Source of the DNA: Thermanaerovibrio acidaminovorans DSM 6589
GTDB lineage: Bacteria > Synergistota > Synergistia > Synergistales > Synergistaceae
DNA: 64,000 bases
Reading direction: 5' to 3'
Assembly (NCBI RefSeq): GCF_000024905.1
Contig: NC_013522.1
Span: 62,001-126,000 of the forward strand
Numbering within the stretch: the stretch's first letter is position 1; every line of letters begins with the position of its first letter. This document shows positions 3,447 through 62,489 of the stretch, piece after piece. Position numbers and translations under genes: made by a program. Below the pieces are notes generated by a model, which saw only the letters and a program-made list of their open reading frames with translations, did no database searches and had not been told where the DNA came from.

Positions 3447-3549
3447 CGCACCTCCCCCCTTCCTTTCGATGTTGTGCCGGGCCCGGGGCCCAAGGGCAAG
3501 GGAAGGCGTTTCCCACCGGAGGCGCCCGCCCGCGCAGGCAACCTTCCCT

Positions 3550-3695
3550 TCAGCCCCCGGCCGGTCTCCTGGCTGGCCTTCATCCTATCCGCCCCTTCCC
3601 AGGCATACCCAGTGGCATCGGCGGACTCGTCGGGCTCACAGTGGCGGGGCCGCGCCGGATTCGCACCGGACTTCCCGTTCACCGGAGGCTAACAA
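3550..3695 (-). promoter_or_regulatory. Cobalamin (AdoCbl-type) riboswitch for the cbi operon
   Basis: On the minus strand the leader reads through all the usual landmarks in order: GGTGAACGGGAAGTCCGGTG, then a CCGCCACTGTGA box, GATGCCACTGGG, GGGAAGG, a GATGAAG-type element and the B12-box GCCAGGAGACC. It begins within a few bases of the predicted transcription start. Between the aptamer and cbiC there is a CCTCC (minus strand 3522-3518) complementary to the cbiC ribosome site GGAGG, which suggests translational masking when cobalamin is bound. That part is inference. Confidence 0.92.
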
Positions 3696-3698
3696 AGA

Positions 3699-3728
3699 TG
3701 TATAACCGCTAACCCAGCGCCACGTCAA
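3699..3728 (-). promoter_or_regulatory. Sigma-70 promoter of the cbi operon
   Basis: Minus strand: -35 TTGACG (3728-3723), 18-bp spacer, -10 TATACA (3704-3699). The -35 box lies inside the last codons of the ZIP permease gene, and the start point falls at about 3692, right at the 5' edge of the riboswitch. The spacing and boxes resemble those of the eut promoter at 19239. Confidence 0.75.
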
Positions 3729-19276: not shown

Positions 19277-19478
19277 AGGTTTCTATCCCTCTATAGGGGT
19301 TTCTGTTTGGCCTTTGCCCGTTGTCAATCTCTGACCAGCCGCGATGCAAGGGAAGCCGATGGGATTTCGGCGCGGGGCCGCCACTGTGATCCGGACCAAG
19401 CCGCATTGGAGCCACTGGGTTGTCCCGGGAAGGCGCGGCGGGGGATGATGGTAAGCCAGGAGACCTATCGCGGCGGTG
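19277..19478 (+). promoter_or_regulatory. Cobalamin riboswitch for the eut operon
   Basis: Landmarks in order: GATGCAAGGGAAGCCGATG, GGCCGCCACTGTGATCCGG, GGAGCCACTGGG, CGGGAAGGCGC, ATGATGG and the B12 box AAGCCAGGAGACC. It lies directly after the promoter and upstream of eutB, the B12-dependent lyase gene. Cobalamin riboswitch control of eut genes is known in Firmicutes (for example Enterococcus and Listeria). Here it probably acts on the whole operon. Confidence 0.9.
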
Positions 19479-19499
19479 GTAGCTGGGTGCCCGCGGACG

Positions 19500-48295: not shown

Positions 48296-49492
48296 CTATA
48301 GTTCCAGCTCCCTCATGACCGTGTTGAGGTCCTTGTCCCCCCGGCCGGAGAGGTTCACCAGCACGGTGGTGCCATCGCTGAGGGTGGGTAGCAGTTTCAT
48401 GGCGAAGGCCACCGCATGGGCGCTTTCTAGGGCGGGTATTATGCCTTCGTGCCTTGAGAGGGCCAAGAAGCCATCTAGGGCCTCCTGGTCGGTGACCCCT
48501 TCACAGGATATGCGGCCCATGTCCTTGAGGTGCGCCAGCTCGGGTCCAACCCCCGGGTAGTCCAGGCCCGAGGATATGCTGTGAACCCGGCCTGGGTTCC
48601 CGTTTGGGTCGGTGATCACGTAGGTCTTGAAGCCGTGGATGATCGCCGGTTCCCCCCTCATGAGGGAGGCGGCGTGGAGCCCTGAATCGAGCCCTTTGCC
48701 GGCGGGTTCCACCGCGATGAGCTTAACGTCCAGGTCGTCCGTGAAGGCGCTGAATAGCCCCATGGCGTTGCTGCCCCCTCCCACGCAGGCCACCGCGTAG
48801 TGGGGGAGCCGCCCCTCCTCCTTCAGGAACTGCTCCCGGGCCTCGTGGCCTATCACGGACTGGAAGTGGCGCACCATGGTGGGGTAGGGATGGGGGCCCA
48901 CCACGGACCCCAGGAGGTAGAAGGCCTGGGGGTTGGAAGCGTACTCATGGAGGGCCGCGTCCACCGCCTCCTTGAGGGTCCCGTCCCCCTGGGAGACGCT
49001 CACCACCCGGGCCCCCAGGGCCTTCATCCTGGCCACGTTTGCGGCCTGGCGCTGGACGTCCTGGGAGCCCATGAAGACGGTGCACTCAAGCCCCAGGAGG
49101 GCTGCCACGGTGGCGCAGGCGGTGCCGTGCATACCTGCCCCGGTCTCGGCGATGATCTCCTTCTTCCCCATCCGACGGGCGAGCAAACCCTGTCCCAGGG
49201 CATTGTTTATCTTGTGGGCTCCGGTGTGGTTCAGGTCCTCCCGCTTGAGGTACAGCCTGGCCCCCCTGCCCAGGCGGCTGGACAGGTTGGCGCAGAACGT
49301 AAGGGCCGAGGGCCTCCCAACGTAGCGCCGGAGCAGGTCTGTGAGCTCCTGCTGGAACGACGGATCTTCCAGGGCATCTAGAAAGGCCTGATCGAGCTCC
49401 TTCAGCCTGGATCCGATGGATCCGTCCACGAATGCCCCCCCGTACTCCCCGAAGTAGCCTCGCCTGGTCTCGGTCTCCGCATGGTTCCTCAT
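48296..49492 (-). CDS. trpB: Tryptophan synthase beta subunit
   Basis: 398 residues, TrpB1 type. It condenses indole (or indole from TrpA) with serine using PLP. RREDLNHTGAHKINNALGQG-like LKREDLNHTGAHKINNALGQ holds the PLP lysine, ETGAGMHGTACATVAALLGL follows, then the phosphate loop CVGGGSNAMGLFSAF and SAHAVAFAMK. No trpA or other trp genes are visible, so it may use indole salvaged from elsewhere or from a distant trp operon. ATG 49492 follows GAGGAGG. The upstream leader is a complete Trp attenuator with its own promoter. Confidence 0.97.
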   Translation of the reverse strand: MRNHAETETRRGYFGEYGGAFVDGSIGSRLKELDQAFLDALEDPSFQQELTDLLRRYVGRPSALTFCANLSSRLGRGARLYLKREDLNHTGAHKINNALGQGLLARRMGKKEIIAETGAGMHGTACATVAALLGLECTVFMGSQDVQRQAANVARMKALGARVVSVSQGDGTLKEAVDAALHEYASNPQAFYLLGSVVGPHPYPTMVRHFQSVIGHEAREQFLKEEGRLPHYAVACVGGGSNAMGLFSAFTDDLDVKLIAVEPAGKGLDSGLHAASLMRGEPAIIHGFKTYVITDPNGNPGRVHSISSGLDYPGVGPELAHLKDMGRISCEGVTDQEALDGFLALSRHEGIIPALESAHAVAFAMKLLPTLSDGTTVLVNLSGRGDKDLNTVMRELEL

Positions 49493-49584
49493 CTCGTCTT
49501 CCTCCTCTCGATCTCACCTTGGTGTTTTCTAAAGATGAAGGGGGACCACCCCTGTGTAGGATGGCCCCCCGACCTCTTCGGGAT

Positions 49585-49619
49585 AAAAAGGGGGCCGCGG
49601 TCCTCTAGGCCGCGGCCCC
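49585..49619 (-). terminator. Trp attenuator terminator
   Basis: Minus strand: GGGGCCGCGG (49619-49610), loop CCTAGAGGA, CCGCGGCCCC (49600-49591), followed by CTTTTTAT. It lies after the leader peptide and 93 bases before trpB. An alternative pairing of upstream CGGACACCAC with GGTGGGGCCG would break its left arm, the antiterminator expected for this mechanism. Confidence 0.88.
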
Positions 49620-49645
49620 ACCAAGATCCAGTGGTGTCCGCGACC

Positions 49646-49702
49646 TCAGGGGCGCCACCACCAGAAGAGGGAGCTATGGTTGAAGTTGCCGTTCCGGTTC
49701 AT
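49646..49702 (-). CDS. trpL: Trp operon leader peptide (18 residues, three Trp)
   Basis: Minus strand ATG at 49702 encodes MNRNGNFNHSSLFWWWRP followed by TGA. Three consecutive TGG codons are placed so that a stalled ribosome would cover the first arm of the leader structure. When charged tRNA-Trp is scarce the ribosome stalls and the antiterminator forms; when it is plentiful the terminator at 49585-49619 forms. The ribosome site is weak (GATCGAGC). An in-frame ATG at 49717 coincides with the predicted start of transcription. Found by reading the leader; too short for standard gene callers. Confidence 0.85.
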   Translation of the reverse strand: MNRNGNFNHSSLFWWWRP

Positions 49703-49723
49703 GGTATGCTCGATCATGGAGGA

Positions 49724-49752
49724 AGGATACTCCCCGGGGGAGGATCGGTCAA
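49724..49752 (-). promoter_or_regulatory. Promoter of trpL-trpB
   Basis: Minus strand: TTGACC (49752-49747), 17-bp spacer, TATCCT (49729-49724). The start at about 49717 would leave a 15-base 5' leader before trpL. Its -35 box lies six bases from the -35 of the rubrerythrin promoter on the other strand. Confidence 0.7.
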
Positions 49753-49758
49753 CCCCCC

Positions 49759-49787
49759 TTGACAAGTTTGGGCCCCTGGGGTAAATA
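49759..49787 (+). promoter_or_regulatory. Promoter of the rubrerythrin gene
   Basis: TTGACA (49759-49764), 17-bp spacer AGTTTGGGCCCCTGGGG, TAAATA (49782-49787). The -35 and spacer share the words CCCCTTGAC and TTTGGGCCCC with the dtxR-like promoter at 53532. Confidence 0.7.
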
Positions 49788-49854
49788 AAAATCGTTTTAG
49801 ATACCTCGCCCTCCGGGCGGGCATCTCATGAATGAAGAGGAGGAGGATTCGGAC

Positions 49855-50346
49855 ATGAAGACCAACGAGAACCTCATGAGCGCCTTTGCGGGGGAGTCCC
49901 AGGCCAACCGTAAGTACCTGGCCTTCGCCAAGGTGGCGGAGAAGGAGGGGCATAGGCTGGCGGCCAAGATGTTCCTGGCGGCGGCGGAGGCGGAGACCAT
50001 CCACGCCCATGCGCATCTCAAGGCGGCGGGGGGCATAGGGGACACCGCCTCCAACCTGAAGTCCGCGGTGAGCGGCGAGACTTACGAGTTCACCCAGATG
50101 TACCCCCCCTTCATCGACGAGGCCAAGGCGGAGGGCCGGGACGAGGCGGTGCGCACCTTCACCTACGCCAACGAGGCGGAGAAGGTTCACGCCAGGCTCT
50201 TCCAGGAGGTGCTGGACAAGCTGGGTACCGATGACGGGGACGAGTTCTTCGTCTGCACCGTGTGCGGCCACGTCCACAAGGGGACCAGCGCGCCGGAGCA
50301 GTGTCCCATCTGCGGCGCCAAGTCCGCCGCCTACAAGATGGTCTAG
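49855..50346 (+). CDS. Rubrerythrin
   Basis: 163 residues: a di-iron four-helix domain with the paired carboxylate/His motifs (NLMSAFAGESQANRKYLAFA; AAAEAETIHAHAHLKAAGG; AKAEGRDEAVRTFTYANEAE KVH) and a C-terminal rubredoxin-type FeS4 site, CTVCGHVH and CPICGAK. It reduces hydrogen peroxide in anaerobes with electrons from rubredoxin. I chose ATG 49855 because GAGGAGGA is eight bases upstream. The in-frame ATG at 49828 lacks a site. It is followed by the CoA-disulfide reductase gene with its own promoter, giving an oxidative-defence pair. Confidence 0.95.
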   Translation: MKTNENLMSAFAGESQANRKYLAFAKVAEKEGHRLAAKMFLAAAEAETIHAHAHLKAAGGIGDTASNLKSAVSGETYEFTQMYPPFIDEAKAEGRDEAVRTFTYANEAEKVHARLFQEVLDKLGTDDGDEFFVCTVCGHVHKGTSAPEQCPICGAKSAAYKMV

Positions 50347-61259: not shown

Positions 61260-62489
61260 CTAGTTGGGTTCCACCCGGACCCACAGGTCCGGAGAGACGT
61301 CATCCACCGGCAGGAACCCCCGGTGGACCACCAGGGCCCGCCTCTCCCCCTGGTCGGTGACGCCCCCCAGGTCGGATACGTAGAGGGTGAGGCCTCCACC
61401 CTTGAGGCAGTAGCGGTAGCCCAGGTGGTCATGGGTGTTCTCCTGCCAGATCTCGAACCTGTCCTTGAACCGATCCTTCATGAAACTCATGGTGCCGATC
61501 CCGTCGTAGGTCTTGTAGCGGTCAGAGGAGCTCTCCACCTGGACCACCGTCCCCGTCGGGTCGAACAGTATTCTAAGCCCCGGGTATTTGACCCCCGGCT
61601 GGTCCTTGAGGGTGACCGAGTTGTAGGTCCAGACCTCGTACGCCCTGCCGGACACGTCCAGCCCGTCGGATCCGTTGGGCTCCCCCAGGGTCTCCAGCAC
61701 CTGGTCCCGGCTCATTCCGATCTCCACTGGCCCCAGGGACCTGCCGGGCACCACCAGAAGGTTCCGGTCGTTAGGGATGCCCAGCATGGCGTTGGCCGCG
61801 TCCAGCCCGTGCCGGGCCCCCCGATGATCCGGCGAGAGCTCCAGGGTGCGCTCGAAGGCCCACCGGGCCCCCTCGAAGTCCTTGAGCTGGAAGAGGTCCT
61901 TGGCGTCCATGAGGACCCGCTCCGGGTCCCTATCCCGCTCGGCGGACAGCTTGAGGTGCTTGATGGCCATATCGTGGCTTCCCACCCGGCGGTACGCCTC
62001 CGCCAGGAGGCGGTTGGAGTAGGGGGAGGAGCTGGAGAGCTTCTGGGCCCTCTTGAGGGGGCCTAAGGCCTCCTCGGGGCGGCCCAGGCTTAGCAGGATC
62101 CGGCCCTTGCCCAGCAGGGGACGCGGGTCCTTGGGGTCCAGTCGGGACTGGAGGTCGAAGCTGTCCATGGCGTCGTTGAGGCGCCCCAGCCTCTCCTGGC
62201 AGAGGGCGATCCGGAGCACCACGTCCTTCCTCACGGGCCTCAGCTGGTACACCCGCTGATAGACCGGGAGGGCCTCCGCGTACCGGCCCGCCCGATAGAG
62301 GTCCTCCGCCTCCATGAAGAGCCTCTCGGGGAGCACCTTGGTCCTGTAGTGCCACCACCCGCCGCCCAAGAAGGCCATGAGCATCACGAGGCCTATGAGC
62401 CCCAGGGTCCCCTTTGAGACGGTCCTGGGCTCCTTTGGGGGGGGGTTCTCCAGTGGGGGCTCCTCCGTCCTTTGCTGGTCCTGTCTCAT
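61260..62489 (-). CDS. Membrane-anchored TPR protein
   Basis: 409 residues. A cytoplasmic Pro-rich N-terminus (EEPPLENPPPKEP), one TM segment (about 25-44, GTLGLIGLVMLMAFLGGGWW) and about five TPR units (about 55-250: AEDLYRAGRYAEALPVYQRV, ALCQERLGRLNDAMDSFDLQ, GRILLSLGRPEEALGPLKRA, AEAYRRVGSHDMAIKHLKLS). A C-terminal beta-rich domain (about 255-409: VEIGMSRDQVLETLGEPNGS) resembles SmpA/BamE-like repeats (GMTxxQVxxxLGxP). Probably a scaffold at the cell envelope; function unknown. ATG 62489 follows GGAGGGATCGG. Confidence 0.75.
   Translation of the reverse strand: MRQDQQRTEEPPLENPPPKEPRTVSKGTLGLIGLVMLMAFLGGGWWHYRTKVLPERLFMEAEDLYRAGRYAEALPVYQRVYQLRPVRKDVVLRIALCQERLGRLNDAMDSFDLQSRLDPKDPRPLLGKGRILLSLGRPEEALGPLKRAQKLSSSSPYSNRLLAEAYRRVGSHDMAIKHLKLSAERDRDPERVLMDAKDLFQLKDFEGARWAFERTLELSPDHRGARHGLDAANAMLGIPNDRNLLVVPGRSLGPVEIGMSRDQVLETLGEPNGSDGLDVSGRAYEVWTYNSVTLKDQPGVKYPGLRILFDPTGTVVQVESSSDRYKTYDGIGTMSFMKDRFKDRFEIWQENTHDHLGYRYCLKGGGLTLYVSDLGGVTDQGERRALVVHRGFLPVDDVSPDLWVRVEPN

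Follow-up and report, generated by a model that had tools for sequence, protein, structure and literature searches.

Predicted ribosome-mediated tryptophan attenuation ahead of a lone trpB in Thermanaerovibrio acidaminovorans, and related leaders across the Synergistota

Expression of the lone tryptophan synthase beta chain gene (trpB) of Thermanaerovibrio acidaminovorans DSM 6589 is very probably governed by a ribosome-mediated attenuator that would turn on a stand-alone TrpB when charged tRNA-Trp runs short. That an attenuator of the classical, Trp codon type precedes this gene appears almost certain on the basis of sequence, computed folds and comparison among relatives. The element lies on the minus strand of the window, i.e. 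the whole stretch of 64,000 nucleotides analyzed (positions 62,001 to 126,000 of NC_013522.1), and its parts are given in Table 1. A fuller picture, in which a phylum-wide Trp regulon would use one stalled ribosome to disarm two serial terminators by alternating helices, often with a leaderless peptide, and in which the target in many species would be a specialised indole-scavenging TrpB, is evenly balanced between being right and being wrong.

Table 1. Features of the trpB leader region, in window coordinates
Feature	Positions	Strand	Basis
Promoter, -35 TTGACC (49752-49747), 17-bp spacer, -10 TATCCT (49729-49724)	49724..49752	-	consensus scan, 9/12
Leader ORF including stop codon, MIEHTMNRNGNFNHSSLFWWWRP, 23 aa (probable start)	49646..49717	-	sequence; counterparts in L082 and L199
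Three Trp codons TGGTGGTGG, predicted sensing codons, region 1	49655..49663	-	sequence; WW/WWW/WWWW in 43/43 relatives read
Predicted antiterminator 2:3, region 2 ~49645-49631, region 3 ~49622-49608, -24.8 kcal/mol	49608..49645	-	fold with ribosome on Trp codons; 2:3 z -6.0 over 33 leaders
Predicted terminator T1 (3:4), stem-loop 49619-49591, -26.4 kcal/mol, U tract 49590-49583	49583..49619	-	folding; 3:4 z -14
Second terminator-like hairpin T2 (5:6), stem-loop 49570-49540, -25.7 kcal/mol, weak tail UUCAUCUU 49539-49532	49532..49570	-	folding; 5:6 z -17.8; second terminator in 38/43 relatives
Proposed second antiterminator 4:5, T1 GGCCCCC (~49597-49591/90) with T2 GGGGGGCC (49570-49563)	49563..49597	-	duplex -20.4 kcal/mol in window; family z -6.2, -5.3
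trpB, lone tryptophan synthase beta chain, 398 aa, apparent single-gene transcript	48296..49492	-	TIGR00263 552 bits; flanking genes on opposite strand; genome without TrpA

A first-pass annotation of this DNA had proposed a minus-strand promoter with a 17-bp spacer and a terminator ahead of trpB, and both are borne out: a scan of 700 bases (49300-50000) finds no sigma-70-like site other than TTGACC-17-TATCCT (49752-49724), a similar site lies upstream of the leader ORF in most relatives, and T1 folds at -26.4 kcal/mol with a U tract behind it. The leader ORF ends in TGA at 49648-49646 (-). T1 reads GGGGCCGCGGCC-UAGA-GGACCGCGGCCCC followed by CUUUUUAU (49619-49583, -), and CTTTTTAT is the sequence that comes after its stem-loop (49619-49591). 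The T2 hairpin at 49570-49540, whose tail in the window is U-poor, is a feature that the first-pass annotation does not contain. Because both genes flanking trpB are on the other strand, trpB appears to form a single-gene transcript. The order and spacing of promoter, leader ORF, terminators and trpB are those required of an attenuator.

Computed folds of the window RNA behave as such a switch would. Following known footprints, a ribosome on a Trp codon was assumed to leave the RNA unoccupied beginning 12 nt downstream of the first base of the A-site codon. For a ribosome so stalled, RNA extending to region 3 adopts the antiterminator GGUCGCGG...CCGCGGCC, with an energy of -24.8 kcal/mol; when the ribosome is instead placed at the stop codon, it covers the 5' side of this stem and T1 forms. 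The folds at the two ribosome positions thus show the expected exchange of antiterminator and T1, and an antiterminator built of two 10-mers, as first drawn, proves right in its existence and too short in its extent, the pairing running from 49645 to 49608. In 37 of the 43 leaders, the occupancy of region 3 is higher when the ribosome is stalled.

RNAalifold on a MAFFT alignment of 20 leaders recovered the T1 stem only (11 pairs), because the stems shift in position between species, and cognate duplexes were therefore compared with permuted ones. In this test, within-leader and between-leader duplex energies are contrasted after removal of row and column effects. Over 33 non-redundant leaders, in permutations that ignore the relatedness of the leaders, the cognate pairings give z values of -6.5 (1:2), -6.0 (2:3), -14 (3:4), -6.2 (4:5) and -17.8 (5:6), against a range of -2.0 to +2.5 for six control pairings. 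The predicted and mutually exclusive pairings 1:2, 2:3 and 3:4 are shown in this way to have been kept through sequence change across the Synergistota. Together with a Trp run and a terminator in 43 of 43 relatives, they support the ribosome-mediated Trp attenuator that the first-pass annotation had put forward; that annotation did not include T2, the start codon that the peptide probably uses, or the occurrence of the leader before other Trp genes.

In the proposed mechanism, a ribosome translating the leader in ample Trp would reach the stop codon and cover region 2, so that T1 would form and transcription would end, with T2 also forming as a second stop. In scarce Trp the ribosome would stall on the Trp codons, region 2 would pair with region 3, and the 3' arm of T1 (region 4) would stay free. 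Region 4 could then pair with region 5, preventing T2 and allowing the polymerase to pass both terminators. The TrpB so produced would join salvaged indole to serine.

Conservation among relatives is extensive. TrpB matches in 151 Synergistota genomes are of two sorts, and a leader with WW, WWW or WWWW before its stop codon, followed by a terminator, precedes every one of the 43 trpB genes of the lone sort that were read (one of these leaders starts with GTG, and one was seen in part only). The retention of the leader in other Synergistota, anticipated as a comparative check, thus holds for the Trp run and for the terminator alike. Immediately upstream of trpB genes that lie within trp operons, no leader of this kind is seen. 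A maximum-likelihood tree places 39 of 40 leader-bearing TrpBs in one clade (support 100/95); the exception is L124, an operon-type TrpB that also carries a leader. Of 188 Synergistota genomes, 63 contain a match to a covariance model of the leader at E 1e-3. Model R1 of the leader gives no match in 297 genomes of one other phylum at E 1e-5; in 17 genomes of other groups it has three matches, all weak, and no WWW leader is seen at the two best. Divergent forms may occur outside the Synergistota. On Zetaproteobacteria-like contigs (L021, L023 and L027) a short ORF with WWYRS recurs 310-340 bases upstream of trpB, and may be either a leader or part of the upstream gene.

The leader is not confined to lone trpB genes. 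Nearly always with tandem terminators, it is also found before trpE and trpD operons, and the same leader precedes a TrpP-family membrane protein (PF17099) that is followed by an ABC ATPase. At two loci (L192 in G177 and L205 in G174) a Trp-run leader lies before TrpB2 with no adjacent TrpB1 seen, the TrpB2 of L205 scoring over the TIGR01415 cut-off. Trp-run leaders with tandem terminators stand before an SNF-family sodium symporter (L195 in G016), which is a candidate Trp transporter; before a PaaK-like arylacetate-CoA ligase (L196 in G112 and L198 in G118); and before an iron-sulfur protein with a TIGR04076 domain together with an aldehyde ferredoxin oxidoreductase (L180 in G010). Trp synthesis from indoleacetate is a route in some anaerobes, and it is our guess that these ligase and oxidoreductase genes may serve it. 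Judged from the genes that follow it, the leader is a mark of a predicted phylum-wide Trp regulon and is not peculiar to the lone trpB.

A second hairpin with a U-rich tail follows soon after T1 in 38 of the 43 leaders; the others (L116, L118, L119, L120 and L126) keep T1 and group together in a single sub-branch of the tree. Were T2 permanently in place, the switch would be of no use, and for this reason the switchability of T2 was examined. Within a leader, the 5' arm of T2 is complementary to the T1 3' arm and the U tract that follows it (z -6.2, a value equalled in 0 of 20,000 permutations; z -4.1 for the stems alone), the pairing extending over ~15 bp into the U tract in L084 and L086 and over ~10-12 bp in L131 and L132. 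Repetition on 34 non-redundant and previously unused leaders that precede other genes gives a 4:5 z of -5.3 (stems alone -3.6; controls -1.9 to +1.7). The origin of T2 as a copy of T1 was considered and rejected, since 3:6 should then pair as well as 4:5, and its z is -2.0. The 4:5 signal depends on base composition: z is -5.5 below 55% GC, -0.6 at 0.55-0.62 and -2.0 in the five richest leaders. In the GC-rich leader of the window, the 4:5 duplex of -20.4 kcal/mol ranks 4th and 5th of 33 and exceeds 192 of 200 shuffles. At equilibrium T2 is there more stable than 4:5, so that a relay in the window would need co-transcriptional folding.

The lack of a 4:5 signal in leaders of 0.55-0.62 GC, the equilibrium preference for T2 in the window, and the five relatives that have T1 without T2 would all suit a classical attenuator with a passive fail-safe, in which T1 alone is regulated, T2 is an unregulated back-up for leaky transcripts and 4:5 is a by-product of similar GC-rich stems. 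This explanation is possible and on the whole doubtful, since a strong unregulated terminator would also block the transcripts needed in starvation; the cognate 4:5 pairing, moreover, is significant in two separate sets and reaches into the U tract, and it exceeds the 3:6 control, which duplication of the stem should likewise have raised. For the family, moderate preference is accordingly given to a relay by way of 4:5, through which starvation would disarm the two terminators together. For the window itself the relay is less certain, and no more than plausible, the signal being weak or absent among GC-rich leaders and T2 being the favoured fold there at equilibrium.

The product under this control is a TrpB1: the window TrpB scores 552 bits against the TIGR00263 equivalog (cut-off 392), and the ~175 bits that it attains against TIGR01415 fall short of the TrpB2 cut-off of 519. 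The first-pass annotation had called the gene solitary, with no trpA in view, and this can be extended to the whole genome, in which family searches find a single TrpB, no TrpB2 above cut-off, no TrpA, no IGP synthase and no chorismate-binding enzyme; matches were obtained in 14 of 14 control genomes, and the TrpB2 model was over its cut-off in 4. The same searches thus find no de novo Trp pathway of the usual kind, and TrpB would appear to depend on indole from elsewhere; joining of salvaged indole to serine is proposed as its reaction because TrpA, IGP synthase and a chorismate-binding enzyme were not found in the genome. The indole could come from an enzyme of the tryptophanase/tyrosine phenol-lyase family, whose gene (L172, G000:C1, ~676.2-677.6 kb) scores 647 bits against NF009709 and reaches no equivalog cut-off. 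Among the 43 genomes with lone trpB genes, TrpA over cut-off is missing in ~20 by hand count, several of these assemblies being incomplete. One genome that keeps a lone trpB has two fragments resembling a decaying trpA (G050:C12:137119-137386).

The lone TrpBs are set apart from operon-type and outside TrpBs by Met in place of Gln in the GAGQHG loop in 41 of 42 (position 121; Gln114 in Salmonella numbering). At 182 (Salmonella 175) they are without the usual Arg and at 179 (172) without the usual Glu, and at 288 Phe is present in 42 of 42. Positions near 175 in Salmonella numbering are those which we take to touch TrpA, and the type-specific residues are fitting for indole salvage. Met in the GAGQHG loop is also seen in a few operon TrpBs with trpA nearby (L121-L123 and L128); two genomes have a trpB copy on either side of trpA. 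The best PDB match of the window TrpB is LBCA TrpB (5ey5). Stand-alone activity is known in the TrpBs of Pelodictyon luteolum and LBCA, and the LBCA-Res6 set is reported to confer TrpA-independent activity (PMC11917138). The likeness to these two enzymes would lie in a TrpB1 able to work without TrpA (PMC11917138). The LBCA-Res6 set is E, E, T, S, A, M; the five of its six positions that were placed by hand in the window TrpB, by alignment to 5ey5, all differ, reading S, T, S, F, K and not E, E, T, A, M. LBCA-Res6 is accordingly rejected as the cause, and we infer stand-alone activity from the missing TrpA partner and not from a known signature.

The near-fixed Gln-to-Met change (41/42) and the other type-specific residues could also mean that the switch is real and that the lone TrpB makes something other than Trp from indole and serine, e.g. 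by beta-replacement with another nucleophile. This is improbable, since control through Trp codons suggests that Trp is what the enzyme makes, the window TrpB passes the TrpB equivalog cut-off, and the Met is shared by operon-type TrpBs that have trpA nearby. The lone TrpB lineage, in which a usually conserved active-site loop bears a near-fixed change, offers a set of candidate stand-alone tryptophan synthases.

An 18-residue leader peptide with three adjacent Trp codons, beginning at 49702, had been proposed at first. The Trp run is there, and it is the start that probably needs revision: an in-frame ATG at 49717 lies 6 nt downstream of the -10 box, at about the predicted start of transcription, and this start, unlike that of the 18-residue version, has a counterpart in each of the other two genomes of the genus (L082 and L199), whose peptides are likewise of 23 residues and begin MI. 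The peptide is thus probably one of 23 residues from the predicted +1 and not of 18, and its ORF would probably lack a 5' UTR, i.e. be leaderless. Among leaders with a promoter score >= 8, 14 have a distance of 6 or 7 nt between the -10 box and the first in-frame start, and in the rest this distance is scattered from 4 to 51 nt. In Sinorhizobium meliloti the trpL transcript likewise starts at the ATG of a Trp leader peptide (PMC7298713), as is predicted for the trpB leader; the S. meliloti leader differs in preceding trpE(G) and in having had trans-acting roles shown (PMC7298713). Given this precedent and the leaderless start predicted for the window leader and 13 others, the attenuated RNA or its peptide might be supposed also to act in trans, as rnTrpL and peTrpL do in S. 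meliloti. This supposition is improbable: outside the Trp run the peptide varies freely among genera, which is not suggestive of a conserved peptide function.

The rarity of the arrangement in the window sets it apart from its commonplace parts. The window contains one short ATG ORF that closes directly behind WWW and has a strong terminator downstream, and 0 of 60 window shuffles contain such a combination. A covariance model of the leader, for which the window leader was in the model-building set, has a single clear hit in the genome (E 1e-16, against E 0.23 for the next). That a chance ORF lies next to an ordinary terminator with no attenuation, as the frequency of TGG runs in a GC-rich genome (TGGTGGTGG by itself occurs 13 times in the window and 375 times in the genome) might suggest, is so improbable that it is rejected on conservation and shuffles, the ORF-terminator combination found in no shuffle being kept in 43 of 43 relatives, and the upstream gene being divergent, so that there is no upstream transcript to be ended there. 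Nor does the leader belong to a known Trp leader family of Rfam, an identity that was rejected because no curated covariance model matches: at the gathering threshold no leader family is found for the trpB leader, and at E up to 10 there are only unrelated weak matches. Elsewhere in the window two cobalamin riboswitches (RF00174) are found, at 3542-3701 (-, 96 bits) and at 19325-19486 (+, 86 bits).

Ribosome-mediated Trp attenuation is familiar from textbooks, with most known cases in Proteobacteria and Actinobacteria. A literature search that left most subscription papers outside its reach found no report of it in the Synergistota, and as far as could be seen it is new for this phylum. The regulation of his genes in Synergistetes has been assigned to HisR (PMC9413887). 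In the Actinobacteria, classical Trp attenuators are described, among them those before trpB1EDGC and trpB2A of Corynebacterium diphtheriae (PMC1262725). In the portion of that account available to us, the actinobacterial elements resemble the present one in a leader with double or triple UGG and a GC-rich terminator, and those of C. diphtheriae do so further in preceding operons that begin with trpB; they differ in that trpB there heads operons, and a second terminator is not mentioned in that portion (PMC1262725). In the Synergistota the attenuator appears to be widespread, and to stand before salvage and uptake as well as synthesis genes.

The attenuator of the E. coli trp operon has a leader peptide with consecutive Trp codons and four segments, in which a 2:3 antiterminator alternates with a 3:4 terminator. 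The Synergistota version shares the consecutive Trp codons, the alternating segments 1-4 and the opposition of 2:3 to 3:4; it differs in standing before a lone trpB, and in relatives also before transporters and TrpB2, and in the window by the second terminator that follows and by a leader ORF that probably has no 5' UTR. The relay, if true, would explain how a gene behind two terminators can be induced, and would represent a natural design for a tight switch. Its closest analogue as a chain of alternating helices is the his operon attenuator of Salmonella and E. coli, with six segments A-F in which A:B, C:D and E:F are opposed to B:C and D:E. In the his leader the codons are those of His and the terminator is E:F only, whereas the Synergistota leader has Trp codons and carries U tracts behind both its middle and its last hairpin.
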